Shown in pieces: positions 2-51,764 of a stretch of 64,000 nucleotides of DNA (within the stretch, counting starts at the first letter, position 1; every line of letters starts with the position of its first letter). The position numbers and the translations under genes are program-made. A model generated the notes under the pieces. It was not told the origin of the DNA. It did no database searches and saw only the letters and a program-made list of their open reading frames with translations. Origin of the DNA: Pseudomonadota bacterium (GTDB lineage Bacteria > Pseudomonadota > Gammaproteobacteria > Steroidobacterales > SZUA-146). Location: NCBI GenBank assembly GCA_039028935.1, contig JBCCHD010000009.1, positions 62,001 through 126,000 of the forward strand, written 5' to 3'.

Positions 2-877
2 GCTCATCGGATCGCCTACACGCTGGCGTCAGAATTTACTATTCCGTGGGTGGCGGACTTTCGTGATCTGATGGCGTGCGAAGACTGGCCGCTTGACGCG
101 CAAGAGCGCGACGCGCTGTTGGCGTTTCAAAGTAAGGTGGTGGCACGAGCGAACCGATGCGTTCTGACAACACCCGGCGCCACCCGCCACTATGCCGCAC
201 TTCATCCTGATGAACCTGAGAAGAAGTTTGTGTGCTTACCCAATGGTTACGACGAATCCTCTTTTCGCGATGTCACGGCGGCCAAGGCCGACAAAACGAA
301 TCGGATTGTGCTGTTGCACGCCGGAATCTTATATCCCTCTGAACGAGACCCGCGGCCGTTTTTTGAAGCGTTGGCGTCGATGAAACAGCAACAGAAAATA
401 AGTCATGAGAATTTCTGTGTGCGTTTGCGAGCCACTGGGCACGATGCGCACTACACGCCAATGCTCGCGCAATATGGTATCCAGGATCTGGTCGAGCTGG
501 CGCCGCCACTACCGTACAAGCAGGTGCTCAATGAAATGATCGCGAGCACGGGGCTGTTGATTTTTCAGGCGGCTAATTGCAATGAACAGATCCCAGCGAA
601 ACTGTATGAGTATTTTCGCGCAGGTCGTCCAATTGTTGCGTTGACTGACGCGCATGGGGATACCGCGGCGACTATTCGCGAAGAAAATGCGGGAGTCATC
701 GCTCAGATCGACGACGCGCGCGAAATCGAAGCTGCGCTGGACCGTTTTATTGCCGATGCGCAAAACGGCGCATTGAGTGTCATGCCACCCGATCGTGTGA
801 CGCACTATTCACGTGAGCACCAGGCTGGCGATCTGGCGCGTGTTCTCGACTCGCTGTGTTTAGCGGCATCAACGTAG
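2..877 (+). CDS. Glycosyltransferase, GT4-like, 5' end outside window
   Basis: This is the C-terminal part of a glycosyltransferase that probably adds a sugar during cell-surface glycan synthesis. The reading frame is open from base 2, and residues upstream of the first possible start (GTG at 50) continue the typical family stretch (IPWVADFRD). The true start therefore lies before the window. The visible part has the GT-B C-terminal Rossmann half. An LLHAG segment (about residues 88-92, counting from the GTG) is followed by a nucleotide-sugar-binding region in which E-x7-E-like spacing around the PAKLYEYFRAGRPIVAL segment is typical of GT4 enzymes. The donor and acceptor sugars cannot be told. 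It lies just upstream of a long leader region and the giant surface-protein gene. The glycosyltransferase fold is reasonably sure, the exact family less so. Confidence 0.8.
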   Translation, partial: AHRIAYTLASEFTIPWVADFRDLMACEDWPLDAQERDALLAFQSKVVARANRCVLTTPGATRHYAALHPDEPEKKFVCLPNGYDESSFRDVTAAKADKTNRIVLLHAGILYPSERDPRPFFEALASMKQQQKISHENFCVRLRATGHDAHYTPMLAQYGIQDLVELAPPLPYKQVLNEMIASTGLLIFQAANCNEQIPAKLYEYFRAGRPIVALTDAHGDTAATIREENAGVIAQIDDAREIEAALDRFIADAQNGALSVMPPDRVTHYSREHQAGDLARVLDSLCLAAST

Positions 878-1341: not shown

Positions 1342-1408
1342 CATTTGGTCCATCCGCTGCGACAGAGTCATTTGATCAGTTGTTAAACGCTATTACTGAG
1401 ATCAAATG
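1342..1408 (+). promoter_or_regulatory. Possible expression platform hiding the start codon
   Basis: CATTTGATC (1369-1377) is exactly complementary to GATCAAATG (1400-1408), which contains the ATG at 1406. A near copy, CATTTGGTC (1342-1350), could pair with the same strand using one G-U pair. Only one of the two upstream arms can pair at a time. The ribosome-binding site is weak (CTGAG ending at 1400) and its last G is in the same 3' arm. This arrangement downstream of a riboswitch aptamer suggests translational control. The complementarity is seen; the switching is inferred. Confidence 0.45.
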
Positions 1409-4400: not shown

Positions 4401-7400
4401 ACAACGGATTCACAACGTTAAGTTGGCAATCCACGTCCGCCGATTCGTGCGTGGCCAGTGGCGCGTGGGCCGGGGCTAGGCCCGTCAACGGCAGTGAGTC
4501 GATTGGGCCGTTACAAAGCAACCAGACGTTTTTTTTGAGCTGCTCTGGGGCGGGCGGAACCGAGAGTCGTAGTGTAACGGTGCTTGTCGCGCCACCAGAG
4601 CCCCCACAATTAACGTTAAATGCCTCGCCTACGTCAATTGATTACAACGGGTCGACAACGCTCGTCTGGAGCGCGCTGAATGCGTCGACCTGTTCGGCCT
4701 CCGGAAACTGGTCTGGGAGCCGTCCGATCAGTGGTAGCGAGACAGTGGGCGGGCTTCAATCAGATGCCAGTTTTACCCTATCGTGCACCGGTCCCGGCGG
4801 CACCATTCAACGCACCGCGACCGTCGATGTAGCACCCGTTCCGGCGCCCTCGGTCGCGTTGATCGCGTCCCCGAATTCAGTGGATTTTGATGGCGCCACG
4901 ACCCTCAGTTGGACAACCAGCAATGCCCAATCGTGTGTTGCTGCCGGCGGTTGGTCAGGCAGTCAGCCGTTAAACGGCTCCACTACGATTGGTCCACTGC
5001 AGGCGACAACCGCGTTTACACTCACGTGTACGGGCCTAGGCGGTTCCGGTAGCGACAGCACCACCGTGGCGGTTGGTGTCGCGCCGTCGCCGACACTTAG
5101 TTTCAGCGTGTCTCCGTCGAGCGTGGCGTTTAACGGAAGCTCGGTGGCCAGTTGGAGCACCACTCACGTTACGGCATGTACCGCGTCGGGTGATTGGGCC
5201 GGGGCGCGTGGCCCGTCGGGGCAGCAATCGTTTGGCCAGCTTCAAAGCAATCAGACCTTAACGTTGTCGTGCACCGGACCGGGGGGCAGTGTCAGCGATA
5301 CCAAGGTGATCAGTGTCGCCGCCGCACAGCTCCCGAACATCGACTTGTCTGCGACGCCAGGATCGGTCGCCTTTAATGGGGCGGCGCAGATCACGTGGAG
5401 TGTCGACAACGCAACATCGTGTATCGCGTCTGGTGCGTGGACGGGTGGACGCGCTTTGTCAGGCAGTGAAACGGTGGGCCCACTTCAGCAAGACAGTAGT
5501 TTTATATTGACCTGTACGGGTGTCGGGGGCACAGCGGCCGATAGCGTGTCGGTGGATGTCACCTCTCCAACACCGACTGTGGCACTGACCGCCGCACCCC
5601 TGTCGGTTGCCTTTGGCGACGAGACGAGCCTAAGCTGGATCAGTGAGCACGCGGATAGCTGTATCGCCAGCGGTGCATGGTCTGGCAACGTGGGCACCAG
5701 CGGCTTGTCGGTAGCGAGCGGCGCGCTGACCAGCGATAGCACGTTTACCATCACGTGTACTGGAGACGGTGGATCGACCAGTGACTCGGTGAACGTCAAT
5801 GTGTCGGCGGCCGGCGCGCCCTCAGTCAGTTTTGTTGCGACACCGAGCAGCGTTCAGTCTGGTGAGTCGACGACGTTGAGCTGGAGCTCGACCAACACCG
5901 ACTCCTGTAGCGCCTCCGGCGATTGGTCGGGCACGCTTGGCACGTCCGGTACCCAATCGGTCGGCCCGCTCACGTCGGACAGTACATTTGTGATCAATTG
6001 CAGCGGTGCAGGTGGCGACGCCGGTCAGTCGCTCACGGTTCCCATTTCGGTACCGTCCGCCAGCGTGACGATTTCGGCAAGCCCATCGAGCGTAGACTTC
6101 GATGGATCAACCACACTGACCTGGTCGACGCAAAACGCCACAAGCTGTGAGGCGTTCGGTAGCTGGTCGGGCACCAAAGCACTCAATGGCTCGCTGACCG
6201 TGTCTAATCTCACAAGCGATCGCTCCTACGCCTTATTCTGTGACGGCGATGGCGGCTCGGGCAGTGATTTGGTGACGGTCAATGTTGGTGATGCACCGTT
6301 GCCTTCTGTGTCGCTGAACGCAAGCAGTACGTCGATCGACTACGGCACGTTCGTTACGCTCTCTTGGTCGACGGACAACGCCACGGCATGTGAAGCGTTC
6401 GGTGGTTGGACTGGCGCGCGGTCGCTCAGTGGCAGCGAAGTGGTGGGTCCGGTTACGGCCAACAGTGAGTTTGTCTTGGTGTGTTCAGGTGCAGGTGGGC
6501 AGAATGACTCGTCGTTATCGGTGGATGTGTTGATTGATACGCCCACCTTGGCGCTCAACGCCGCGCCGACGCTGGTCGATTTCGACGGCACTACGGTTCT
6601 TACTTGGAGTTCGACCGGTGCCGATACGTGCGAGGCCTTTGGTGCTTGGTCGGGCGTTAAGCCAACCGCCGGCGCTGAACAGGTTTCCAACTTGATGGAC
6701 GATGCGGATTTTGTCTTGCTGTGCGATGGTCCGGGCGGTGAAGCAAACGAAACGGTTACGGTTGCGGTCGATCAAGCGCCGGTACCGCACATCGATTTGT
6801 TTGCGTCCCCGGAGTCCATCGCATTTGGTGATTCGGTGACGCTGAGCTGGTCGACCGACAATGCCACGAGTTGCGAGGCGTTTGGTGGATGGTCAGGTGA
6901 TCAACCGCTCGACGGTAGTTTGGTGGTGACCGATTTGCAAAGCGACACCAACTTCACGTTGCTATGCACGGGACCCGGTGGCGATCATGTGGAAACGCGT
7001 AACGTGACAGTGAGCGACGCGCCAGCACCCAATATCAACTTGAATTTAGAGCCTGGTTTCATTCCATATGGTGGCTCCGCGCAATTGAGCTGGTCAGTGG
7101 AAAGCGCCGACAGTTGTGTGGCGTCCGGCGACTGGAGCGGCGACAAGCCGATGTCGGGCACCGAAACCATCAATAACCTGTTTAATTCGGCGAACTTTAG
7201 TTTGACCTGTTCTGGAATTGGTGGTGGTGCCAGCGTTTCGGTGAGTGCCGACGTGGCCGCACTGGCTGACATGCCGCTACAGGATTTTGAGAACGATCTA
7301 ATGAACACCGATCCGGTCGGTTGGTTTGATACGGGTCCAAATTTCACGCAGGGCGCATCGCAAGCGTCTTTCCGCGTGCAAAGTGTGGGCGGCACTCAGG

Positions 7401-9844
7401 CGCTCGCCTTAACGGCCTTCGAGGGTGAAAATCTGCACTCGCACTACGTATTAAACAATGCATTTACGTGGCAGGACTATCGATATTCGGGCCGTATTCG
7501 GATCGATAACTATGAAGATAAAGCCGGCGTCACGTTCTTGTCGCAAATGCCATTGAGTCCGCATTACTATCGCTTGGGCGTTGACGAAACAGGCACAACC
7601 TTCGTGTTGAGCAGTCACGGCACCGGTCTCGCTTGTGTCGGAGATTTGGACACCGGTGTCGAAGTGGAGCCCGGTAACTGGTACCGCTTTGCCATCGAGG
7701 CAGAAAGCAGCGGCGATCGCACGATTCTTCGAAGCCGAGTGTGGGTGGATGAACAAACCGAGCCCACCCTCTGGCAGGCAACGTGCGAGGACGTTGGTGC
7801 CGCGCGACTGAATAAAGGCACGATCGGTGTATGGGCCAGTATTCAAGGCACCACCGGCGACGGGGCATGGGATGAACTGCTCGTGTCGCCGTTAAGCGCG
7901 CCGCCGGTTCAGCCGCCATCGCTGGCCTTTTCAGCGGCATCAGCAACGGTTTCAACGCTTTCTAGAACCACGCTTTACTGGGATGCCGATAATGCCGATA
8001 GCTGTGTCGCCAGTGGCGACTGGGTGGGCCCGCGAAGTACCGTCGGTTCAGAGCAGACGGATGCACTGACCAGTGACAGTACGTACACGCTCACGTGTAC
8101 CGGGCCGGGTGGTAGCGTGACCCGCTCGGTGGTAGTGGCGGTAGGCGAATCGACGCTGCCGGCGATCAGTCTGTCCGCGGATCCGGTGAGTCCCAACACA
8201 GGTGATACGGTCACCGTTAGCTGGACGGCGACGGATGCAGCGATTTGCACGGCGTCCGGAGATTGGTTTGGTGCGCGAGACGTTTCGGGCGCCCAAGTGT
8301 TCGAGAATATCGAGAAAGACTTGTCCTTGACGCTCGAGTGCATTGGCGCGGGCGGTACGATGTCCGACACGCTAAACATTGTGCTCGCCGATGTGATCCG
8401 TGACCCCGAACTCGAGTTTGCGGTATCGCCATTGGGACTGGGTATCGATGGGACCGCCGTCTTGACGTGGCAATCTGAACACACACTTGAGTGTGCCGCG
8501 TCGGGTAGTTGGAGCGGGACGCTATCGACCGGCGGTTTCCGTCTGGTGGGTCCCGTTGACGTGGCGGAAACGTATACCATCATCTGTAGCGGACGCGGTG
8601 GCGACATCAGCGATACGATTGAAATTTCTTATGTGGATGGCGATGCGGATGGCATGCCCGATATTTGGGAAAATGCGTTATTTGGCTCATTGCAAAACAA
8701 CGGTCTTGGCGATTTCGACGGTGATGGATTAACCGATCAGGAAGAATATCTCGCGGGTACAAACCCGATGATGGTCGACACCGATAATGATGGACAGAGC
8801 GACGGCGCTGAAGTCGAGTTTGGCAGTAATCCTCGTGACGCTAACGATAACTTCGAAAATGCGGCACCTGAGCGACCCATGCTTGAGCCCGAGAATGGAG
8901 CGGCTCTGTCGGAGTTGGTGTTGGATCCGGTCAACGGCTATGAAGACGTTGATGGCAGCGCGTTGGGCTATGCGGAATGGGAGCTCGCTCTGGATGACCA
9001 GTTCTTAAGTGTTGTGATGCATCGACTGGTGCCCGGGGCCACCGCGATCGTGGTACCGACGGGTGTCATGGATCCTGGCGTAACGTATTTTGTTCGCACG
9101 CGCCATTTTGACAACACAGACATTCCCTCTGCTTGGTCGGAAACGGTGTCGATGACAGCGGCGACCGAGTTTCCGAATGACGCGGACGGCGATGGAATCA
9201 ATGATGAGTACCAAGTGCCGGCGGGCGCGGACACCAACGCCAACGGCACGCCTGACGAGCTCGAAGGCATTTGCAATTTATACGATGCGCAAGGGCGTAA
9301 CGTGATTGGTTTGACCACCAATTCCGGCACGATTCGCTGTTACACCTCTGTGCCGAATTCGAGCATGGATCTTGGTAAACTCAGTAGCGATGCGGAACTG
9401 CCGCTCGGTATGTTCACCTTCCGGATCGAAGGACTCATCATTGATCCAAATGCGCCCACCGAGGTTTTTGTCAGCGTGTGGTTGCCGGAGAATTACGACC
9501 CGTCAAGCGGTTGGCAGAAATACGATGAGGCGACCGGCGAATTGGTTGACTACTCTGACTTTGTCACGTTCAACGGCAATCGCGCCACCGTCCGGTTGGT
9601 AGACGGCGGTTTGGGCGATCAGGACGGAATCGTTAATGGCATTATCGTGGATCCGAGCGGTCCGATGGTGATGACCGAGCAGGCACCGGCGCCCTTGCCG
9701 GCACCCACGCCGCCCCCGCCATCGCCCGTGACGCCTCCCGCTGCGGGCGGTGATTCTGGTGGCGGAGGCGCGGTACATTGGTTCATGCCGCTGCTGTTAT
9801 TCAGTGCGGCGCGGCGTCGTTTTGCCAATACGCCGACGGCATAA
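1406..9844 (+). CDS. Giant secreted Ig-like repeat surface protein
   Basis: A 2812-residue exported protein, probably an adhesin or matrix component. Order by residue: signal peptide (1-26); Kelch-like beta-propeller (about 27-380); Ig-like unit 1 (385-463); a concanavalin/lyase-like beta-sandwich (472-787); Ig unit 2 (792-870); a different Ig-like domain (872-980); Ig units 3-14 in a row (984-1952); a second jelly-roll domain (1955-2163); Ig units 15-17 (2168-2408); Asp-rich thrombospondin type 3-like calcium repeats (2410-2482 and 2590-2618); a FnIII-like domain (2490-2587); a choice-of-anchor-like domain (2620-2752); and a Pro-rich linker. The end is GGGGA, a hydrophobic stretch and AARRR, like GlyGly-CTERM sorting tails. 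Each Ig unit has two cysteines, probably a disulfide. An in-frame ATG at 1412 is an alternative start. It is preceded by a c-di-GMP riboswitch and followed by a terminator, so it is probably monocistronic. The ligand and any enzymatic activity are unknown. Confidence 0.93.
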   Translation: MIMHPSNVFARFLLFASALFACFSYADLASDLTPGQWYEIPNSRMDSVDPCPSNNCNYSGVLGFTAMMDAWNGGVFDTVQNRLIIWGGGHQDYYGNDMYGFDLDTESWEMIMPPSPYSATSSHESAGQYPDGRPVSRHTYNALVFVESQNMFLSTASYAKSPGGSSGDSKVWRLDFDNSNLEWTRGADGDNNGAMVVGYSAYNRVTDTVYYHRSLGGRLYKYDPAANTHSYLASKALHIYATAAIDTSRNRMLVLGGSGQQAFYWNLNSSSPSNHNLLSNSTFTGSGGLELANSSQMGLDYDPINDNYIAWTGGKTVYIIDAETMEVDKITPPGATSPGAKNSNGTFGRFRYAPSIGAFVLVNKTDRNVFVYKPTGGGAPPPQVPTVNLNASATTVDAGSNVTLSWSSSNASNCVASGDWSGNKTLSGSQTVSNLQADSTFVLTCSGAGGDASDTAVVSVNDDATPPPPPGGSDWSSRSTAAGVLMATRFDTSGDVHNWKHLDNSQGNVKWETGNVASGNGALRMDILKTDGAASGSWRRWLSADQREFVEGDEFYVSYRQYFPAYYATHVFNGGGGWKQSIISRNAYEMNGVSQDCQTNECGSNQLNEIVLHNNRYRGFPQAYHRNSNGAYPSMEVSANTACSSTDFRHQNAVDRGPQSVGNACENDRARYGGLYSYGSSTGSPDPLTGAFIYHPNEWITFKVYVKLGSQGTNTGNTHVKIWAAREGQDWDLIIDRNNIDLGNGPAHNALWLLPYDTGKQPDSNRQDTYTLYDEVIVSLNDIQAPGTSGDVPPTVQLTASSPSVLAGGSVQLSWTSNDADSCAASGDWSGSKATSGSESIGPISGDSTFVLSCTNANGTRSDEVAVTIEEALSYTISQSSSASHDDSFALDGATVSGPLFAYLTPETNVDIVRFFLDNTNASGSPDGIEYVAPYDFLFSGTQGFDTTSLQNGTHSLTAEVVLQNGTTQLTTVYFDVQNQVIVPGPEVTFSADPVGIDYNGFTTLSWQSTSADSCVASGAWAGARPVNGSESIGPLQSNQTFFLSCSGAGGTESRSVTVLVAPPEPPQLTLNASPTSIDYNGSTTLVWSALNASTCSASGNWSGSRPISGSETVGGLQSDASFTLSCTGPGGTIQRTATVDVAPVPAPSVALIASPNSVDFDGATTLSWTTSNAQSCVAAGGWSGSQPLNGSTTIGPLQATTAFTLTCTGLGGSGSDSTTVAVGVAPSPTLSFSVSPSSVAFNGSSVASWSTTHVTACTASGDWAGARGPSGQQSFGQLQSNQTLTLSCTGPGGSVSDTKVISVAAAQLPNIDLSATPGSVAFNGAAQITWSVDNATSCIASGAWTGGRALSGSETVGPLQQDSSFILTCTGVGGTAADSVSVDVTSPTPTVALTAAPLSVAFGDETSLSWISEHADSCIASGAWSGNVGTSGLSVASGALTSDSTFTITCTGDGGSTSDSVNVNVSAAGAPSVSFVATPSSVQSGESTTLSWSSTNTDSCSASGDWSGTLGTSGTQSVGPLTSDSTFVINCSGAGGDAGQSLTVPISVPSASVTISASPSSVDFDGSTTLTWSTQNATSCEAFGSWSGTKALNGSLTVSNLTSDRSYALFCDGDGGSGSDLVTVNVGDAPLPSVSLNASSTSIDYGTFVTLSWSTDNATACEAFGGWTGARSLSGSEVVGPVTANSEFVLVCSGAGGQNDSSLSVDVLIDTPTLALNAAPTLVDFDGTTVLTWSSTGADTCEAFGAWSGVKPTAGAEQVSNLMDDADFVLLCDGPGGEANETVTVAVDQAPVPHIDLFASPESIAFGDSVTLSWSTDNATSCEAFGGWSGDQPLDGSLVVTDLQSDTNFTLLCTGPGGDHVETRNVTVSDAPAPNINLNLEPGFIPYGGSAQLSWSVESADSCVASGDWSGDKPMSGTETINNLFNSANFSLTCSGIGGGASVSVSADVAALADMPLQDFENDLMNTDPVGWFDTGPNFTQGASQASFRVQSVGGTQALALTAFEGENLHSHYVLNNAFTWQDYRYSGRIRIDNYEDKAGVTFLSQMPLSPHYYRLGVDETGTTFVLSSHGTGLACVGDLDTGVEVEPGNWYRFAIEAESSGDRTILRSRVWVDEQTEPTLWQATCEDVGAARLNKGTIGVWASIQGTTGDGAWDELLVSPLSAPPVQPPSLAFSAASATVSTLSRTTLYWDADNADSCVASGDWVGPRSTVGSEQTDALTSDSTYTLTCTGPGGSVTRSVVVAVGESTLPAISLSADPVSPNTGDTVTVSWTATDAAICTASGDWFGARDVSGAQVFENIEKDLSLTLECIGAGGTMSDTLNIVLADVIRDPELEFAVSPLGLGIDGTAVLTWQSEHTLECAASGSWSGTLSTGGFRLVGPVDVAETYTIICSGRGGDISDTIEISYVDGDADGMPDIWENALFGSLQNNGLGDFDGDGLTDQEEYLAGTNPMMVDTDNDGQSDGAEVEFGSNPRDANDNFENAAPERPMLEPENGAALSELVLDPVNGYEDVDGSALGYAEWELALDDQFLSVVMHRLVPGATAIVVPTGVMDPGVTYFVRTRHFDNTDIPSAWSETVSMTAATEFPNDADGDGINDEYQVPAGADTNANGTPDELEGICNLYDAQGRNVIGLTTNSGTIRCYTSVPNSSMDLGKLSSDAELPLGMFTFRIEGLIIDPNAPTEVFVSVWLPENYDPSSGWQKYDEATGELVDYSDFVTFNGNRATVRLVDGGLGDQDGIVNGIIVDPSGPMVMTEQAPAPLPAPTPPPPSPVTPPAAGGDSGGGGAVHWFMPLLLFSAARRRFANTPTA
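4357..7260 (+). repeat. Twelve contiguous Ig-like coding repeats, ~240 bp period
   Basis: Units 3 to 14 of the giant protein form an unbroken array. Each unit has the pattern P-x-(hydrophobic), S-P/T, L-S-W, a first Cys, A/F-S/G-x-W-(S/A)-G, a G/S-rich turn, L-x-x-(D/N), and a second Cys followed by G-x-G-G. The units are clearly related in protein but differ widely in DNA. This points to old duplications kept by selection rather than recent slippage. Units 10-13 share a C-E-A-F-G variant of the first-cysteine motif where most others have C-x-A-S-G. They therefore form a subfamily that probably arose by duplicating a block. Confidence 0.9.
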
Positions 9845-42870: not shown

Positions 42871-43884
42871 ATGTCACCACTCGTATCCGAGCCACGAACA
42901 GGCCTTTTTGCCTGGCTGGCCTCCACGATTCTCGTTGTCACCGTTGCCTTGAGTCCGGCGGCCCTCGCCGTTGGCACGGTCGCGGGAACGGATATCTCCA
43001 ACACGGCCAGCGTGAGCTACGAGCTCAACGGCACACCGGTTACCGCCGATTCACCACCGGTTGTTGTGACGGTGGCGGAGATCATCGACGTGGATGTCAC
43101 GCTGCAAAGTCCCCAGCTGCCGGTTGCACCGGGAGACACGAATCAGGCGATCGTTTTTACGGTGACGAATACGGGTAATGGCACGGAAACGTTTACGCTC
43201 GCCGGACTGAGTACGCTCGCGGGGGATGACTTCGATCCTGTGCTGTCAGCACCCAATGCACTGTTTTTTGATACCGACAACAGCGGTGACCTCTCACCGG
43301 GTGACACGCCATACAACCCCGGCACGAATGACCCGGTCTTAGCCCCGGATGAAGTGATTACGGTATTGCTGGCCAACGACATTCCGGCTGGATTGCTGGA
43401 CACCAATCTTGGTCAAACGCAGCTTACGGCCACCTCGACAACCGGTACAGGCGCGGCAGGCACTGTGTTTGCCGGAGCCGGCGATGGCGGCGTGGATGCC
43501 ATGACGGGCTCGACCGAAGGTGAAGACAACGATGTCGGTGAGTACATCATCGAAACGATCAGTGTCGCTGTCGCCAAGAGCGCCACCGTTAGCGATCCGT
43601 TCGGTGGCACCACACCGGTGCCGGGCGCTCAGATCACCTATCAGATCACCACCACCGTAACCGGCACAGGCACGGCGGTGGGTGTCGTCGTCGACGACCC
43701 AATTCCGACGAATACCACTTTTTTACCGGCGTCAATCACTCTGAATGGCGCCAATCTCACGGACGCCGCCGACGGTGACGTGGGTGAGTTCGATGCAGGC
43801 GTGCCCGGTATTTCGGTTGCACTGGGCGATCTGGCGGCGGCGGACGGTCCGCAGGTCGTCGAATTTATCGTTGTTATTGATTAA
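42871..43884 (+). CDS. Secreted DUF11-type protein, first gene of surface operon
   Basis: A 337-residue exported protein. The hydrophobic signal (FAWLASTILVVTVALSPAALA) suggests cleavage near residue 35. The mature start (GTVAGTDISNTASVSYELNG) is a short module also found at the mature start of the third and fourth operon genes. A beta-sandwich follows, then an Asp-rich stretch (DTDNSGDLSPGDT) that may bind calcium. A C-terminal DUF11-type domain closes it (VPGAQITYQITTTVTGTGTAVGVVVDDPIPTNTTFLP). It is very poor in Lys, Arg and Cys, as is usual for extracellular structural proteins. AAGGATGAGG precedes the ATG. It is a likely paralogue of the third gene. The function is unknown; a fibre or matrix subunit is inferred. 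Confidence 0.85.
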   Translation: MSPLVSEPRTGLFAWLASTILVVTVALSPAALAVGTVAGTDISNTASVSYELNGTPVTADSPPVVVTVAEIIDVDVTLQSPQLPVAPGDTNQAIVFTVTNTGNGTETFTLAGLSTLAGDDFDPVLSAPNALFFDTDNSGDLSPGDTPYNPGTNDPVLAPDEVITVLLANDIPAGLLDTNLGQTQLTATSTTGTGAAGTVFAGAGDGGVDAMTGSTEGEDNDVGEYIIETISVAVAKSATVSDPFGGTTPVPGAQITYQITTTVTGTGTAVGVVVDDPIPTNTTFLPASITLNGANLTDAADGDVGEFDAGVPGISVALGDLAAADGPQVVEFIVVID

Positions 43885-43904
43885 TCCACTTTGGGGGAAA
43901 CGTT

Positions 43905-44387
43905 ATGAACCTCGTTAGAACGTTAGTTTTATTCACGCTCGCGACTGTGGCGACCAATGTCATGGCTGAATCTCAGCCGATCAGCGTCAACACGGCAGCA
44001 GAGAAAGAAGAGCGCTACGTGGATGCAGACGGTGTTGAGCGATCGCGCCTAGTGCCTGTTACCACGGTGATTCCAGGCGATCAGGTGGTATACACCATCA
44101 CCTTCGCGAATCAAGGCACACAGCGGGCGGACGGCATCAAGATCGTCGACCCCATACCCGCGCAAATGCGCTACATCGAAAGCTCTGCCTTCGGGCCGGG
44201 CACAACCATTTCGTTCTCAGCCGATGGCGGGCAGACGTTTGCTGCGGCGAATGCCGTGATGATCGAGGACAACGGCACCGCACGCGTGGCGTCGCCGACC
44301 GAATACACGCACATCCAGTGGCTGTTCAACAGTTCGCTTGAACCGGGCGCGCAAGGCTACGCCCAGTTTAAAGCGCAACTGAAGTAA
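43905..44387 (+). CDS. Single-domain secreted DUF11 protein
   Basis: A 160-residue exported protein with a cleaved signal (TNVMA, about residue 21) and one DUF11 domain (VVYTITFANQGTQRADGIKIVDPIPAQMRYIE). It starts 20 bases after the first gene of the operon, with GGGGGA eight bases before the ATG. It is the smallest member of the set and may be a cap, linker or minor subunit. DUF11 domains are beta-sandwiches common in large bacterial and archaeal surface proteins. No enzymatic motif is seen. Confidence 0.85.
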   Translation: MNLVRTLVLFTLATVATNVMAESQPISVNTAAEKEERYVDADGVERSRLVPVTTVIPGDQVVYTITFANQGTQRADGIKIVDPIPAQMRYIESSAFGPGTTISFSADGGQTFAAANAVMIEDNGTARVASPTEYTHIQWLFNSSLEPGAQGYAQFKAQLK

Positions 44388-44470
44388 GCCTTTGGGGGAT
44401 TCGCCTGTTGTTGTTAGTCACCCAAGTCGCACGACGCGACGGACGGTGAGAGTTTAGGAGTGAAGTTGTG

Positions 44471-45727
44471 ATGAACCATCGAGTAACCGGAACCTACGGC
44501 CTCAAGCTGACGTTGTTGTCGGCTTTGTTGGCGTTGGCTCCTTATGCAATGAGCGCCGGCACCGATCCAGGTGGCACGGCGGCGGGACAGACTGTCTCGA
44601 ACCAGGCGACCCTGGATTACCAGGTCGGCGGCGTCAGTCAAACGCAAATTTTGAGTGATAACGACGGCAACCCGATTAACGGCATTAGTGCGACGACGTT
44701 TGTCGTTGATCGTAAGCTTGATTCATCGGTGACCGAGCTTAGCACCACTTACAATAGCGCCACGACCACCACGGTAGGTCCTGGCCTGTCTCAGGGTGCT
44801 GGCAGCACGGGCGCGGTGTTGGCGTTCACGTTGACCAACGAAGGTAACGAGATCCAAGACTTTTCACTGACGGCGCAAGCGACCACATTTGATCCGTTTG
44901 GCGGAGCCGATAACTTCGACGCCACAAACGTTAATGTGTTTGTCGACGCGGACGGTAACGGTGTTTACGATCCGGCGGTCGATACGGCAACCTTTGTGGA
45001 TGAGTTGGACTACGTGGGCAACCCGGGTGGTAACTCCAGCTCTGTCGTCGTCTTCATCGTGTCGGATATCCCGATCGCACAGACGAACGGCGACATCGCG
45101 GCGTACGTGCTCAATGCACAGGTCGCCGAGGGTGGCGCAGCGGGTCAAGGTGCGGACATCACGACCGATGACTCCGGCACCGCGGATGATCCCAATACGG
45201 TGCAGGATGTGTTCGCTGACGAAGACAATGCCAACAACGGCGGTGACGGAGATCGCGATGGTATATCGTCGGCCGAAGATGCGTATCTGGTGGGCGCGCC
45301 CCAGTTGTCGATTAATAAGACGTCTGCGGTGATTGCCGATCCATTTACCTGTCCGGGCTTCCCGGGAACCGCTTGTCCAGGCGGCGCCAATCCGAAAGCG
45401 ATTCCGGGCGGCATCATCGAGTACACCATCACTGTTGCGAATGCCGCTGGATCGGCGTCGGCCACATCGGTGAGCATCGGTGATGATCTGTCGGCGGAAA
45501 TTGTCGGCGGCGGTGGCACCGAAGCCATCGACTTCATTGCAGGCCAATTTGGCGGCAATGACATCGAACTCACCTCAATTGTCGGCGGTGTCCCCACCGT
45601 CACCAACCTGACCGCGGCATCCGACGCCGATGTTGGCCAGTTTGTTGCCAATGTGCTGTCGGTGACCGTCGCCAGCCTGGCAGCCGGCGATAGCGCAGAA
45701 GTGCGTTTCCGGGTAGAGATTCAGTAA
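44471..45727 (+). CDS. Secreted DUF11-type protein, paralogue of first operon gene
   Basis: A 418-residue exported protein with a signal ending near APYAMSA (about residue 28). The same starting module follows (GQTVSNQATLDYQVGG). Then come a beta-sandwich, an Asp-rich segment (NVFVDADGNGVYD) and a longer acidic stretch (DEDNANNGGDGDRDG). A DUF11-type domain with one Cys pair (FTCPGFPGTACPGG) closes the protein. AGGAG lies ten bases before ATG 44471, and GTG 44468, seven bases after it, is an equally good start. The order of modules matches the gene at 42871, so the two arose by duplication. It probably works with the big outer-membrane protein that starts seven bases after its stop. Confidence 0.85.
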   Translation: MNHRVTGTYGLKLTLLSALLALAPYAMSAGTDPGGTAAGQTVSNQATLDYQVGGVSQTQILSDNDGNPINGISATTFVVDRKLDSSVTELSTTYNSATTTTVGPGLSQGAGSTGAVLAFTLTNEGNEIQDFSLTAQATTFDPFGGADNFDATNVNVFVDADGNGVYDPAVDTATFVDELDYVGNPGGNSSSVVVFIVSDIPIAQTNGDIAAYVLNAQVAEGGAAGQGADITTDDSGTADDPNTVQDVFADEDNANNGGDGDRDGISSAEDAYLVGAPQLSINKTSAVIADPFTCPGFPGTACPGGANPKAIPGGIIEYTITVANAAGSASATSVSIGDDLSAEIVGGGGTEAIDFIAGQFGGNDIELTSIVGGVPTVTNLTAASDADVGQFVANVLSVTVASLAAGDSAEVRFRVEIQ

Positions 45728-45734
45728 CCCGAAA

Positions 45735-48700
45735 ATGCAGGCGATTCATCACAACACGCTTGCTGGCGTGCGTCCGGGCATGAGCCCGGACGCGCGCCGT
45801 GCGGCTTGTGCGGAATCGTCTGAGATGAAGGTTGCGACGCCGCCTTTACCAAGCGGTGCGGTGCCTCATTTGCCGGATAAGCAGGGGCGCTTGTGCACCG
45901 GCACTGTTCATCCCAAAAAGAATCCTTCAACGCGTCACAATCTGACGCGTTTAGTGGTCTATGCGCTGGGGATTTTCGTCATCGGTTTGTCTACCGCTCA
46001 CGCGCAGACGCTACCGGGGACCGCCGTCGACAATGTCGCGGAAGTGCGCTTCACAACGCCACTGGGAATTGCAGCCGCCATCGATAGCAATGTCGTTTCG
46101 CTGACAACCCAGCTCGCTCCGACCGACGCCGAGATTGCCTTTGTGCAGGTTGGTGAGGCAGGTGGTGACCAATCGATTCACCCCACTGAGTGCGTGTCGG
46201 CCACCGGCGCGCAGATGTTGCCGGATCCAAAGTTGTTTTCAGGCGCGACGGTCGATTCGAACGGATTGTTCACCATTGACGACGCCGCTTTTTTTCATGG
46301 CGGTGATCCGCTGTTTGTGCAACTGGATGATCAGGACCAAAATCTAGACGCGACGGCACTGGATACCATCGCCGTGACGATTTCCTTTGCGGCAACGGGC
46401 GACAGCGAGGACCTAAACCTCACCGAAACGGACGTCAATACGGGGCTATTTGTGGGGTACATTCCCACCGCAGTGAGTGTGGCGAGCGCGAACGACTGCG
46501 TGCTGCAGGTCGAGTTAGGCGGTCAAGCTCAGGCGAGTTATACCGATCCCAATGATGCAACCGATGTTTCAGCCAGCAGCGCGCTGGTCGATCCATTAGG
46601 TATTGTGTTTGATTCGGGTAACGGTGCGCCCATCAACGGCGCTGAAGTTCGCCTGATTAATCAGGCCACCGGTCTTCCGGCCACCGTGTTTGGTGACGAT
46701 GGGGTCAGCACCTATCCATCGGAGGTCATCACCGGGGGGTCGGTCACAGACAGCGGTGGCACCCAGTATATTTTTGATGACGGCGCATTTCGCTTTCCAC
46801 TGATTGCACCAGGTCGCTATCGTCTTGAGGTCATTCCACCTCCGGGCTACACGGGGCCCTCCATTGTCGCAATCAATGATCTGCAGCAGTTACCGGGCGC
46901 ACCGTTTACCTTAGTGCCGGCGTCATTCGGTGCCGAGTTTGTGGTCAACCCCGGGCCAGTTGTGCGCATTGATGTGCCACTGGATCCATCTTCTGCAGCG
47001 CTTTTCTTGCAGAAAACCTCGCCGCTTAACGTGGCGGCACCCGGCGACTTCGTGCCCTACGAGTTGCGAGTTGATAATGCTGACGGCGTGGCGCGGGTCG
47101 ATGATGTTCGCATTACGGATAATCTGCCGGCAGGGTTTCGCTTGGTGAGCGACTCTGTGCGAATTGATGGCCAGCCGGCGCCAGACCCGGTGATCGATAG
47201 CACGGGTCGCGGTTTAACGTTCTTGCTGGGCACGCTCAACGGCGGTCAGAGTCAACGCGTCAGCTATGTAACAGAAGTGACCAACGCCATCCGTGGCGAG
47301 GAAGCGGTCAATAGCGCAGTGGCCGCTGGCAACGGCGGTATTGAATCGAATGTAGCGAGCGCCACCAATACACTCACTGAAGATCTGTTTGCGTCCAATA
47401 GTTTTCTAATCGGCCGTGTCATCAACGGTAGTTGCGACGATACGGTCGACAATGATCTTGAAGGCGTCGCCAACACGCGCATCTATCTCGAAGATGGTCG
47501 CTACGCCATCACCGATGAAGGCGGGCGCTTCCACTTTGAAGGCGTGGAACCAGGCGCGCATGTGGTTCAACTGGATGTCGATAGTATTCCGACGCATATG
47601 GAAGTGATTCCCTGTCAAAACAACTCCCGGTTTGCCGGTCGGGCGTTCTCTCAGTTTGTTGATCTACGCGCCGGCTCATTGTGGCGAGCGGATTTTTACT
47701 TGCAGCCCATACCACCAGCGGATGGCGCGGTGGACGTATTATTGGAATCGCGTCCGGTTGCGGATGGCGTGGACTACTCGCTGACCGTGCTCGGTCGCGG
47801 TGATGTCGTTATTGGTGATCTTGAGGCATTGGTGCTGATGCCGGATGGCGCTGAATATGTCGCCGGTAGCGCCGCCCGCAACGGCCAGGCACTGGATAAC
47901 CCAGCCGTTAACGGAAGCCTGTTGACGTTTCGCTTGGGCACTCGTGAGGGTGACTGGCAAGAGATTGTGACGTTTCGCGCGCGCTATGGTGCAGGGGGTC
48001 GCGAGTGGCTTACCAAGGCGATGGCCTCGTTCGAGGCTGGCGATGAGAAGAAGCGTACGCCACTCGTGGACAATCTGCTTGTATTCGAACCATCGGTTGA
48101 GGAGCGTGTTGAATTCACGCTTACGCCAAAATTTGGTACGCGTCGGGCACAACTAAGTGAGGCCGATCGCCGCGATATCGATAACGTCATTGCCCAGATC
48201 AAAGGTGCACGGGATATTCGTGTGCACATCGTCGGTCACACGGACAATGTCCCCATTGCCCCGCAAAACAGGACCGAATTCGCGGACAATCGTGTGCTGT
48301 CACACGCGCGTGCCGCGGGTGTGGCGCGCTACGTGCGCGATGAGCTAGGGCTTTTACCAAGTCAAATGACCGTAGAGGGAAAAGGCGCCGACCAACCCCG
48401 CGAGAGTAACGCCACCCCCGAGGGCCGCAAAGCTAATCGCCGCGTGGCGCTGTCGATTTGGGGTGAAAAGCCGGTGCTCAATTCGCGTCGACAAGTGGCG
48501 GCTGGCAGTCGGCTATTAAGTGATCTGCAGTCGCTCACGGTGACCGGGACAACGTCGGCGCCGAGCGAACCACTTAGTCGCGCGCAGGCCGTAACGTCGG
48601 CGGGCCCCGATTACTTTGCAGATGAGACGCTCGTTGAAACGCTCGAACCTGGTTTTGAACTGCTGCAACCCGCAGCGGATGAGAACCTTGCTATTCCGAG

Positions 48701-51700
48701 TCTTAAAATTGCGGTGAAACACGCGCCTGATCAACGGGTGCAACTTGAGCTGAATGATCAGCCAGTAAATGGCATTCACTATGAAGGTAAAAACCGTAAT
48801 GGCGCTCGCACGGTCGCGGTGAGTCGATGGCGTGGCGTTAACGTCGAGCCCGGTCAGAACCGTTTGTCGGTGGTGTTGTTAGATCGAAATAACCACGAGC
48901 TGGAGCGTATTGAGCGAATTGTTCACTTTAGCGGTGGACCGGTACGCGCAGAGCTTGATGTGAACGCGTCAACGCTGATTGCCGATGGTCGACAGCGCCC
49001 AGTGATCGTGCTGAATACGTTTGACCGTGAACAGTACCCGGGACGGCCGGAAGCGGTTGGCGTTTATCATGTCGAGCCACCGTATCGCTCAATGTGGGAA
49101 GTTAATGCCGCGCGTGAAAATCAATTGGTGGTGGTTGGCGATCGCGACCCGGTTTACACGCTCAACGCGAAAGGGCAGGCCATCATCGAACTGGAGCCGA
49201 CGTCGCAGGCGGGCGAAGTAGTGCTCAATCTTGAGTTTGAGAACGGCCTGGAGCAGGAAATTCGGGCTTGGCTCAAGCCGGCTGCGCGCGATTGGATTTT
49301 GGTGGGTCTAGCCGAAGGTACCGTTGGCTACAACACGCTGCGCGATAACCTCGAGAACGCGTCGGATGATGGCCTCGAGGACGACTTTTATGAAGAGGGG
49401 CGTTTGGCGTTTTTTGCCAAAGGGCGAATTCGTGGCGACTTTCTGTTAACGCTTGCCTACGACACACGTGGGCGATCACGTGATCGCCTTTTTGGCACAA
49501 TCGACCCCGATCGGTTTTACACACTGTATGGTGATGCAACGGAACAGCGCTTCGATGCCGCCAGCCAGGAAAAACTCTTTCTCAAGATCGAGCGAAATCA
49601 ATTCTATGCGCTGTTTGGCGACCACCAAACGGGGCTTACCGTCACCGAACTCTCGCGCTACAACCGATCGCTCACGGGCGTTAAAAGCGAATACGTCGGG
49701 GAGCGCTTTGGCTACAATGTGTTTGCCGCGGAGACCAATCAAGCGTTTGTAAAAGACGAAATTGCCGGCGACGGGACGTCAGGCCTTTATCAGCTTAGCC
49801 GCCGACCGATCATTATCAATAGTGAAAAGGTTACGCTTGAGGTACGAGATCGTTTTCGAACAGAAGTGATTGTCGAGAGTCGCAGCTTGGCTCGCCATCT
49901 TGACTACAATATTGACTATTTGCAGGGCACGCTCTTTTTCAAGCAACCAGTGCTCAGCCGCGACGCGCAGTTTAATCCCGTGTTTATTGTGGTGGACTAT
50001 GAGAGTCGCGATGACGGTGACGACGAGCTCATCGCCGGTGGTCGTGCATCGTATCGTCCGGTTGCGAATGTGGAACTGGGAGCAACGGCGATACGCGAAG
50101 GCATGGCCGGCGGCACGGGTGAACTCATGGGTGCCGATCTGACGGTGATCGTGCGCCCGGGTACCGAGCTTCGCGCTGAGTACGCCACAAGCGATTCGAC
50201 GCAAAATGGTGTTGCGTCGGAGGGAGACGCCTATTCACTGGAGTTGCGACATCAGGGCGAGAAGCTCGATGGCGTGGTGTACACCCGCGAGCAGCAATCC
50301 GGCTTTGGTCTAGGGCAGCAGCGCGGAACGGAGAGCGGAACACGCAAAACAGGGTTTGCGGGTCGTCTTCGTATGAGTCGAACACTGACCCTAAACACCG
50401 ATGTCTATACGCAAAAGAACCTTGGCAATGGCGCAACGCGCGATGTGGTTCAAGGCGAAGTGCGCTACCAGAGTGGCCGCGCGACCGTGGGTGTCGGTTT
50501 GCGTTCGGCCGCCGATGAAGATGAAACGGGCGTGAGCCGAAAATCAGAGCAAGCCTTTGTAAATGGTAGCTATCAGTTGCTTGATAATCGATTAACATTG
50601 CGCGGCAGTACGGATTTTTCACTGGGCGACAACGCGAGCGGCGACTTTCCTCGACGCACATTGCTTGGCATGGATTATCGACTAAACGATCGCGTCACCG
50701 TGTTTGGCGAGTATGAAGTTGCCGAAGGGGACAACATCGAGGCGCAGACGTCACGCGGCGGGATCAAAGTCACCCCATGGGAACGTGCCAACGTCAATGC
50801 GTCAGTGAATCGTGCGATTTCCGAGTACGGACCACGCGTGTTTGCAAATGTGGGTTTGGTACAGGGCTTTCAACTCAATGACAAGGTGACGCTGGACGCG
50901 GGCTTCGATCATGGCAATACCCTAGCGACACCAGAGTTTAATGATTTTAATATCGATACACCGCCCACGTCGGGCGCGATTGGTGAAGACTTTACCAGCG
51001 TGTTTGTTGGTGGTGTGTACCGCAGTGAAGACTGGTCTGCCACTTCACGCCTCGAGCTCCGTCGCTCTGATCTGGAAGATCGCGAAACGCTGCAGGTTGG
51101 CTTCTATCGCGAGGAAAAAGAAGGCGTCGGCTTTAGCCTCAACGCCCAGGTGTTCAACAGTGAATCGGGTGATGTGAATAACCTCAATGCCGATGTCCGA
51201 CTTGGACTGGCCTATCGGCCCGCCGATAGCGAGTGGGCAATTTTCGACCGCCTCGATCTTGGGTACGACGATTTCGATTCATTGAGTGATTCGCGACGGT
51301 CATGGAAAGTCGTGAATAATCTCAATCTCAACTGGATGATGAGTCGCGACACACAAATCGATTTTCAGTACGGCGCCAAGTTTGTTCGCAGTAATATCGC
51401 TGATCAGAGCTATACCGGTTTCTCCGACTTAGTGGGTGTGGCCTGGCGACACGACGTCAATGACCGTTTCGATGTTGGTTTGCACGGTCATGTGCGTCAC
51501 GCCTGGCGCTCTGACGTCTACGATTACTCGATTGGTTTTGAGGCGGGGGTTACGGTAATGCGCAACGCCTGGGTAAGTGTTGGCTACAACGTAACAGGAT
51601 TTGAGGATGACGACTTTAGCCAAGCAGGCTATCTCGCCTCGGGTCCGTATATTCGATTCCGTCTAAAAGCCGATCAACATACGTTTGATGATTTTCGTCG

Positions 51701-51764
51701 CGGCATGTTGTTCCGCCGCGAAGACGTGGCGGTCAATACGGCACGACGACGCGCACGACAATAG
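45735..51764 (+). CDS. Giant DUF11-OmpA-beta-barrel outer-membrane protein
   Basis: A 2009-residue protein. A signal peptide ends at AHA-Q (residue 90). The 65 residues before its hydrophobic core are unusual, so a later start (ATG 45825 or TTG near 45891) is possible. Modules in order: the operon's shared mature-start module (92-140); a CnaB-like domain (288-376); DUF11 (423-546); an SdrD/carboxypeptidase-regulatory-like domain (556-629); a second DUF11-like domain (666-752); an OmpA-type peptidoglycan-binding domain (791-912) with HTDN and NRVLSHARAAGV; an Ig-like region (969-1186); and a long C-terminal beta-barrel (about 1190-1990) with alternating strands and GYNVTGF-type turns. Having the OmpA domain before the barrel is the reverse of OmpA. 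It may anchor or export the three small DUF11 proteins; this is inferred. Confidence 0.88.
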   Translation: MQAIHHNTLAGVRPGMSPDARRAACAESSEMKVATPPLPSGAVPHLPDKQGRLCTGTVHPKKNPSTRHNLTRLVVYALGIFVIGLSTAHAQTLPGTAVDNVAEVRFTTPLGIAAAIDSNVVSLTTQLAPTDAEIAFVQVGEAGGDQSIHPTECVSATGAQMLPDPKLFSGATVDSNGLFTIDDAAFFHGGDPLFVQLDDQDQNLDATALDTIAVTISFAATGDSEDLNLTETDVNTGLFVGYIPTAVSVASANDCVLQVELGGQAQASYTDPNDATDVSASSALVDPLGIVFDSGNGAPINGAEVRLINQATGLPATVFGDDGVSTYPSEVITGGSVTDSGGTQYIFDDGAFRFPLIAPGRYRLEVIPPPGYTGPSIVAINDLQQLPGAPFTLVPASFGAEFVVNPGPVVRIDVPLDPSSAALFLQKTSPLNVAAPGDFVPYELRVDNADGVARVDDVRITDNLPAGFRLVSDSVRIDGQPAPDPVIDSTGRGLTFLLGTLNGGQSQRVSYVTEVTNAIRGEEAVNSAVAAGNGGIESNVASATNTLTEDLFASNSFLIGRVINGSCDDTVDNDLEGVANTRIYLEDGRYAITDEGGRFHFEGVEPGAHVVQLDVDSIPTHMEVIPCQNNSRFAGRAFSQFVDLRAGSLWRADFYLQPIPPADGAVDVLLESRPVADGVDYSLTVLGRGDVVIGDLEALVLMPDGAEYVAGSAARNGQALDNPAVNGSLLTFRLGTREGDWQEIVTFRARYGAGGREWLTKAMASFEAGDEKKRTPLVDNLLVFEPSVEERVEFTLTPKFGTRRAQLSEADRRDIDNVIAQIKGARDIRVHIVGHTDNVPIAPQNRTEFADNRVLSHARAAGVARYVRDELGLLPSQMTVEGKGADQPRESNATPEGRKANRRVALSIWGEKPVLNSRRQVAAGSRLLSDLQSLTVTGTTSAPSEPLSRAQAVTSAGPDYFADETLVETLEPGFELLQPAADENLAIPSLKIAVKHAPDQRVQLELNDQPVNGIHYEGKNRNGARTVAVSRWRGVNVEPGQNRLSVVLLDRNNHELERIERIVHFSGGPVRAELDVNASTLIADGRQRPVIVLNTFDREQYPGRPEAVGVYHVEPPYRSMWEVNAARENQLVVVGDRDPVYTLNAKGQAIIELEPTSQAGEVVLNLEFENGLEQEIRAWLKPAARDWILVGLAEGTVGYNTLRDNLENASDDGLEDDFYEEGRLAFFAKGRIRGDFLLTLAYDTRGRSRDRLFGTIDPDRFYTLYGDATEQRFDAASQEKLFLKIERNQFYALFGDHQTGLTVTELSRYNRSLTGVKSEYVGERFGYNVFAAETNQAFVKDEIAGDGTSGLYQLSRRPIIINSEKVTLEVRDRFRTEVIVESRSLARHLDYNIDYLQGTLFFKQPVLSRDAQFNPVFIVVDYESRDDGDDELIAGGRASYRPVANVELGATAIREGMAGGTGELMGADLTVIVRPGTELRAEYATSDSTQNGVASEGDAYSLELRHQGEKLDGVVYTREQQSGFGLGQQRGTESGTRKTGFAGRLRMSRTLTLNTDVYTQKNLGNGATRDVVQGEVRYQSGRATVGVGLRSAADEDETGVSRKSEQAFVNGSYQLLDNRLTLRGSTDFSLGDNASGDFPRRTLLGMDYRLNDRVTVFGEYEVAEGDNIEAQTSRGGIKVTPWERANVNASVNRAISEYGPRVFANVGLVQGFQLNDKVTLDAGFDHGNTLATPEFNDFNIDTPPTSGAIGEDFTSVFVGGVYRSEDWSATSRLELRRSDLEDRETLQVGFYREEKEGVGFSLNAQVFNSESGDVNNLNADVRLGLAYRPADSEWAIFDRLDLGYDDFDSLSDSRRSWKVVNNLNLNWMMSRDTQIDFQYGAKFVRSNIADQSYTGFSDLVGVAWRHDVNDRFDVGLHGHVRHAWRSDVYDYSIGFEAGVTVMRNAWVSVGYNVTGFEDDDFSQAGYLASGPYIRFRLKADQHTFDDFRRGMLFRREDVAVNTARRRARQ

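Follow-up and report, generated by a model that had tools for sequence, protein, structure and literature searches.

The locus examined here raises the question of what four adjacent genes for exported proteins with DUF11 domains build together. The genes, here called A to D, lie in the window (the whole 64,000-nucleotide stretch of DNA analyzed), which belongs to the genome assembly of an uncultured gammaproteobacterium (G000, whose 91 contigs total 4.1 Mb). The first-pass annotation had read them as two paralogous secreted proteins, a single-DUF11 protein, and a large outer membrane protein, and it had proposed an undescribed surface system. The features on which our analysis draws are as follows.

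42871..43884, + strand: gene A, secreted subunit with a predicted donor strand, an Ig-like middle, and a C-terminal truncated DUF11 domain (donor and acceptor)
42970..43080, + strand: putative donor module of A at the mature N terminus; Asn codon 43000-43002
43558..43881, + strand: putative acceptor of A, a C-terminal DUF11 domain that stops short of its final strand(s); Lys codon 43576-43578, Asp codon 43696-43698
43905..44387, + strand: gene B, small secreted protein with one truncated DUF11 domain, without the donor module and without the isopeptide Lys (predicted acceptor only)
44468..45727, + strand: gene C, secreted subunit with a predicted donor, an Ig-like middle, and a C-terminal truncated DUF11 domain (donor and acceptor)
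44555..44713, + strand: putative donor module of C; Asn codon 44600-44602
45299..45724, + strand: putative acceptor of C, a truncated DUF11 domain; Lys codon 45317-45319, Asp codon 45482-45484
45735..51764, + strand: gene D, 2009-residue outer membrane base protein (predicted donor only)
46005..46112, + strand: putative donor module of D, preceded by a signal peptide and, before that, a long N-terminal extension; Asn codon 46032-46034
47007..47390, + strand: complete internal DUF11 domain of D, with Lys427, Asp462, and Asn526 in one chain; a natural control
47448..47573, + strand: carboxypeptidase-regulatory-like domain of D (CarboxypepD_reg match, D 572-613)
48132..48440, + strand: OmpA-type peptidoglycan-binding domain of D (match D 800-902, 1.8e-14)
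49290..51689, + strand: predicted C-terminal giant beta-barrel of D, about 36 to 38 long strands
49767..49976, + strand: small beta-rich insert between barrel strands of D (D 1345-1414), in what may be a usher-plug-like position

The order, strand, and sizes of the four co-directional genes agree with the first description. The intergenic gaps are 20 bp between A and B and 7 bp between C and D, and the 83 bp previously given for the B-C gap holds only for an ATG start of C, a GTG start giving 80 bp. Reading by eye, we recognized a signal peptide at the start of each protein. In D, an unusually long extension (~69 residues) precedes the signal peptide within positions 45735-46004 and is also found in orthologues. 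All four proteins contain DUF11, for which the NCBIfam repeat model gives the strongest matches: A (Pfam 7.7e-5, NCBIfam 3.9e-9) and C (0.023 and 4.2e-7) pass the NCBIfam cutoff only, and B (1.6e-8 and 3.1e-12) and the internal domain of D (1.9e-8) pass both. A and C are indeed homologous (27% identity, E 7.6e-10), B is the single-DUF11 protein, and the OmpA domain and C-terminal barrel (~800 residues, the barrel predicted by the model) that had been assigned to D were both recovered. A PHROGs search returned OmpA-type matches only, and a sigma-70-type promoter scan gave fewer matches than in shuffled sequences. The nearest named record with D is the MAG SZUA-146, with 74% identity across the barrel part.

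The four genes form one conserved unit. Scanning 84,980 species genomes with the C-terminal part of D, we found 317 stretches that encode relatives and kept the best 80 loci; the start of D was uncut in 58 of these, 52 of which had at least 3.6 kb upstream. In those 52 loci, C was found upstream of D in 50, B in 49, and A in 44, with all three present in 44. Among 147 genomes of the order to which the window belongs, 25 encode a full-length D, and 23 of the 25 also encode B; in the remaining two, the assembly is fragmented. In a set of 39 relatives, D orthologues occurred in several other families, with the small genes in the same order wherever upstream DNA was present. Neighborhood co-occurrence, which had been suggested as a check, therefore came out in favor of a single system, D being almost always accompanied by the small genes. 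The recurrence of the A-B-C-D order across many families and phyla puts the gene set far beyond chance. Apart from a single cultured species, Desulfatibacillum alkenivorans DSM 16219 (L136), the hosts are uncultured members of the Gamma- and Betaproteobacteria, Desulfobacterota, and Nitrospirota, and they include Woeseiaceae, Steroidobacter, Gallionella, Sideroxydans, Methylotenera, and Sulfuriferula.

Gene B also occurs alone in four genomes (G024, G101, G150, and G161; loci L172, L173, L178, and L179), where it adjoins a DinG/YoaA-type helicase gene on one side and, on the other, a 579- to 640-residue gene that is a candidate pckA judging from its size and the look of its sequence. A 579-residue candidate pckA gene and a helicase gene flank the A-B-C-D operon of the window at some distance, and the slot of the lone B is apparently the place taken by the full operon there. 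Since B stands alone in several genomes, it may have another role.

What joins the products of this unit is suggested by their chain ends, a point absent from the first-pass annotation. The C termini of A, B, and C fall inside the DUF11 domain, at a strand of the form F-x-V-x-I or similar, and the last strand or strands are absent. The mature N termini of A, C, and D share a module, I-x-N-x-A-x-V-x-Y, which begins within about 10 to 16 residues of the signal cleavage site; this module had been noticed in three of the four proteins from the start, and its resemblance to the missing piece of DUF11 had not. Around its Asn, positions -2, +2, +4, and +6 are hydrophobic in 93 to 100% of the sequences of the A, C, and D families, and the residues between them are mostly polar, an alternation that, as far as sequence can tell, is the pattern of a donor strand. 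Because B lacks the module and the C terminus of D is a barrel, there would be three donors (A, C, and D) and three acceptors (A, B, and C). Large proteins of the acceptor-only type also lie near some operons (L074, L100, L124, L125, L127, and L135), with Lys and Asp intact. At L100, this protein combines an L-type lectin domain with a complete DUF11 domain and, after it, a truncated one that has Lys and Asp; at L135, it has 383 residues and is encoded downstream of the operon. The predicted build of these large partners is that of a two-part tip adhesin.

Crystallography has shown DUF11 to be an isopeptide domain with a Lys-Asp-Asn triad (in 9IFR, Lys715, the catalytic Asp748, and Asn806; PMC12617251). 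In the complete DUF11 domain inside D, the triad occupies a single chain and is nearly invariant (Lys427, 54/55; Asp462, 55/55; Asn526, 54/55). In the C family, Lys and Asp are present in the C-terminal domain of all 53 sequences and Asn at the N terminus of 52, and the A family has Lys in 43 and Asp in 44 of 44 sequences at the C-terminal end and Asn in 39 of 44 at the N-terminal end. The donor Asn of D is found in 53 of 54 sequences. In the last strands of A and C, there is no Asn conserved in at least 75% of the sequences. The putative triad is split, with Lys and Asp at one chain end of A and C and Asn at the other, and partly across different proteins. B lacks the Lys, and Asn replaces its Asp in 41 of 52 sequences (the B of the window retains Asp); without the isopeptide Lys, B would therefore at most bind a strand without forming a covalent bond. 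Four true A donors are without Asn. The lower Asn conservation in the A donor is not significant (Fisher p 0.057, from related sequences), and this least-conserved Asn would fit an A strand that enters B.

Comparisons with DUF11 profiles bear on whether the module can stand for the missing part. When real donors were added to the A acceptor of the window, Pfam coverage grew from 10-57 to 10-98 of 114 positions, and a shuffled donor gave no extension; adding the A donor to B raised its DUF7619 score from 22.9 to 39.4 bits. Real donors outscored shuffled ones each time in five other loci, by small margins. When the DUF11 profile was an independent one, acceptors of A and B joined to a donor of A or C outscored each of ten shuffles in 19 to 25 of 41 loci (3.7 expected), with mean gains of 2 to 3 bits for A and B acceptors versus about 1 for decoys. 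With the same profile, C acceptors gained nothing from donors, and D donors gained little. Alignment of the donor profiles to DUF11 with hhalign brought the module Asn into register with that of DUF11 every time, at very low probability. A 37-column HMM from the last hairpin of the internal DUF11 domain of D picked up none of the N-terminal modules, a result that its shortness makes uninformative, and neither the composite A sequence nor the L065 composite had a PDB relative by sequence. Overall, these comparisons lend modest support to the module being the missing DUF11 piece.

We also modeled one joint with AlphaFold, using as input an orthologue of C (L065) continued past its stop codon into the N terminus of D, with the strands of both C and D present. 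The model has a pLDDT of 80.5 and a pTM of 0.70; the D strand is well predicted (about 84), unlike the linker, which is disordered and of low confidence. High confidence is likewise given to the donor of C itself (pLDDT ~90). The top structural matches are isopeptide pilin domains: with BcpA, 135 residues within model 236..474 align at Z 13.7 and rmsd 2.6, and with SpaD, 131 residues within model 238..472 align at Z 12.8 and rmsd 2.5. Since the aligned range runs from the last domain of C to the D strand, the N terminus of D completes the last domain of C in the model, although this docking is favored by the input, a single chain whose parts follow each other as in a complete DUF11 domain. By the range ends, which gaps could shift, model Lys243 (from C) falls on SpaD Lys187, and Asn447 (from D) falls within one residue of SpaD Asn299.

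We propose, with a probability of about 0.62, that A, B, C, and D make up a surface fiber, or a short chain, held together by split DUF11 (CLIPPER) domains, with joints at A and C that are capable of isopeptide formation and with D as the base. The N-terminal strand of A, C, or D would fill the incomplete C-terminal DUF11 groove of the next subunit outward. In the grooves of A and C, the strand that enters would bring its Asn to Lys and the catalytic Asp, and a Lys-Asn isopeptide bond could then form autocatalytically, so that the subunits are probably locked covalently. A and C would be the links of the chain. The outer end would be closed by an acceptor-only protein, either B or, in some species, a large protein of the lectin or DUF11 type, and D, as a donor only, would hold the inner end through its OmpA domain, bound to peptidoglycan, and its giant outer membrane barrel. 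The genes, their conservation, the truncated domains, and the residue patterns are read directly from sequence, the barrel and the completion of C by D come from models, and the covalent bond, the polarity of the chain, and its display on the surface are inferred, as is a possible passage through the D barrel. The idea of an undescribed surface system with an outer membrane anchor and small subunits is supported, and the unspecified coat first suggested gives way to donor strand complementation by split DUF11 domains with a probable isopeptide lock. If the fiber reading is correct, it would be a natural, evolved counterpart of SpyTag/SpyCatcher that builds a surface fiber across several phyla of environmental bacteria, it would give a function to one widespread form of DUF11 protein, in which a truncated C-terminal domain goes with an "N-x-A" module at the N terminus, and it would provide further orthogonal peptide ligation pairs.

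The base of such a fiber would be unusual in its size. The AlphaFold model of D 1060-1985, built with 57 sequences (pLDDT 79.9, pTM 0.79), contains a barrel, as had been expected from the sequence, with about 36 to 38 long strands that would place it among the largest single-chain barrels. The small beta insert follows roughly eight strands, in the best-conserved part of the barrel. The domains of D that had been called extracellular more likely reside in the periplasm, since they come before the peptidoglycan-binding OmpA domain, on the same side of the barrel.

Whether D also exports and assembles the subunits, as a usher-like secretion pore, is a question compatible with the fiber reading rather than opposed to it, and the model makes such a pore possible at somewhat less than even odds. 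FimD ushers were the top three matches of the D barrel in VIA, with Z 14.2 (353 aligned, rmsd 8.0) and Z 13.8 (323 aligned, rmsd 6.3), the insert after about eight strands resembles a plug, and the genome has no match to the PF00577 usher family. However, generic barrels scored nearly as high (TOM40, 13.2; VDAC, 12.9), as did SlpA (Z 12.9, 420 aligned), the operon has no PapD-type chaperone, and D shows no sequence relation to ushers. Membership of D in the usher family was rejected: D has no Pfam Usher match up to E 1, and hhalign of D against a thin usher profile gave a probability of 2.4%. Foldseek matched the barrel to MtrB (of the Mtr complex), SlpA (7.5e-9), BtuB, SprA (2.4e-6, among many barrels), FimD, and PapC. 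The matches to SlpA, MtrB, and SprA show similarity at the fold level only.

Chaperone-usher pili (type 1 and P pili) are among the closest known systems to the proposed chain. They share with it incomplete Ig-like subunits, an N-terminal strand that completes a neighbor (here predicted from sequence and model), an acceptor-only tip, and a large outer membrane barrel, the model of the D barrel being most similar to FimD in VIA. By this analogy, the chain would have the polarity of chaperone-usher pili, which is the most economical model. In contrast to those pili, the operon has no PapD-like chaperone and no usher family match, its DUF11 subunits are unrelated, the isopeptide triad appears split, and the base has its own donor strand, an OmpA domain, and a larger barrel. 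None of the four operon proteins matched a chaperone family in Pfam or NCBIfam, and the C termini of A, B, and C, which stop within DUF11, carry no sortase-type sorting signal or membrane anchor. A more ambitious reading, in which these genes represent a new, self-ligating class of Gram-negative pili that uses a natural split isopeptide domain, with no dedicated chaperone or sortase, to assemble onto and possibly through a usher-like, peptidoglycan-gripping barrel of ~36 to 38 strands, is tentative and slightly less probable than the pore function itself.

Other known systems share single elements of the proposed fiber. Sulfolobus threads (Saci_0406) combine head-to-tail donor strand complementation with an intersubunit isopeptide bond, which links the N-terminal alpha-amino group to an Asn of another subunit two positions along (PMC9715654). 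Compared with their published description, the present system differs in a Lys-Asp-Asn triad predicted to be split between neighbors and in being bacterial, outer membrane anchored, and heteromeric. The DUF11/CLIPPER domains of fibrillar adhesins share the domain family and the Lys, Asp, and Asn positions, but the bond there is intramolecular (PMC12617251), whereas here Lys/Asp and Asn are at opposite chain ends and partly in different proteins. SpyTag/SpyCatcher and DogTag/DogCatcher (PMC8878318) also rely on a split isopeptide domain, as predicted here, but these domains were cut in the laboratory, whereas the A-B-C-D arrangement occurs in nature and is conserved. A very large outer membrane barrel is also found in Deinococcus SlpA (SDBC) and in SprA of the T9SS, with a likeness to D at the fold level only and no DUF11 partner system. 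A literature search for DUF11, in which subscription journals and preprints were thinly covered, returned no description of the A-B-C-D gene set. Donor strand fibers and isopeptide pilins are already known, and it is their combination with a split triad and a giant OmpA-barrel base that is undescribed in the literature searched.

Two readings without a chain deserve consideration. In the first, A and C would be closed monomers, the N-terminal hairpin of each folding into its own truncated DUF11 domain in a circularly permuted fashion, and the proteins would act as separate secreted or surface factors. Both halves are present in A and in C, and the Asn is conserved in the same protein as Lys and Asp, as this reading would predict. 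Yet it leaves B with a groove and no strand and D with a strand and no open groove, an arrangement conserved across loci, and in the C-D model it is the D strand, not that of C, that completes the C domain, subject to the bias of chain order; we therefore regard closed monomers as unlikely. Slightly less probable still is a tether and coat, in which D would resemble Deinococcus SlpA and the products of A, B, and C would form an attached layer, with neither polymerization nor passage through D. SlpA also joins peptidoglycan, and the OmpA domain and giant barrel of D, together with the place of SlpA among its best structural matches, agree with such a role, but the split isopeptide triad and the bookkeeping of donors and acceptors are left unexplained. 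An intramolecular-only DUF11 reading as the full story was ruled out because D is donor only and B is acceptor only.

D-like barrels also occur in other settings, and the barrel family is wider than the A-B-C-D system. At two loci (L176, 6677-12091, and L180, 7359-10682), the D-like barrel belongs to a lone large protein, in one case with Invasin_D3/Big_1 matches, and A, B, and C are absent nearby. The genome of the window itself has a second locus (L009, G000:C40, 3725-17446) that encodes a 2999-residue DUF11-matching protein and a 1457-residue OmpA/barrel protein, the latter 31 to 50% identical to parts of D; this pair is without donor or acceptor ends. Loci L053 to L057 carry a two-gene unit with overlapping ends, in which a gene for a 1600- to 2200-residue protein is followed by one for a ~1700-residue protein with a D-like barrel; these giant variants are related in barrel and OmpA domain, but they were rejected as the same system, with no donor/acceptor pattern seen. 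A divergent locus (L060, G030:C29, 4549-11775) encodes two ~225-residue proteins with truncated DUF11-like ends and a 1928-residue Big_1/OmpA/barrel protein, and it adjoins genes resembling a sensor kinase and response regulators. Elsewhere in the window, positions 1406-9844 hold a 2812-residue open reading frame whose product, a second candidate surface giant, combines TSP3_bac and a stretch resembling a beta-propeller with a weak match to DUF5979, another isopeptide family.
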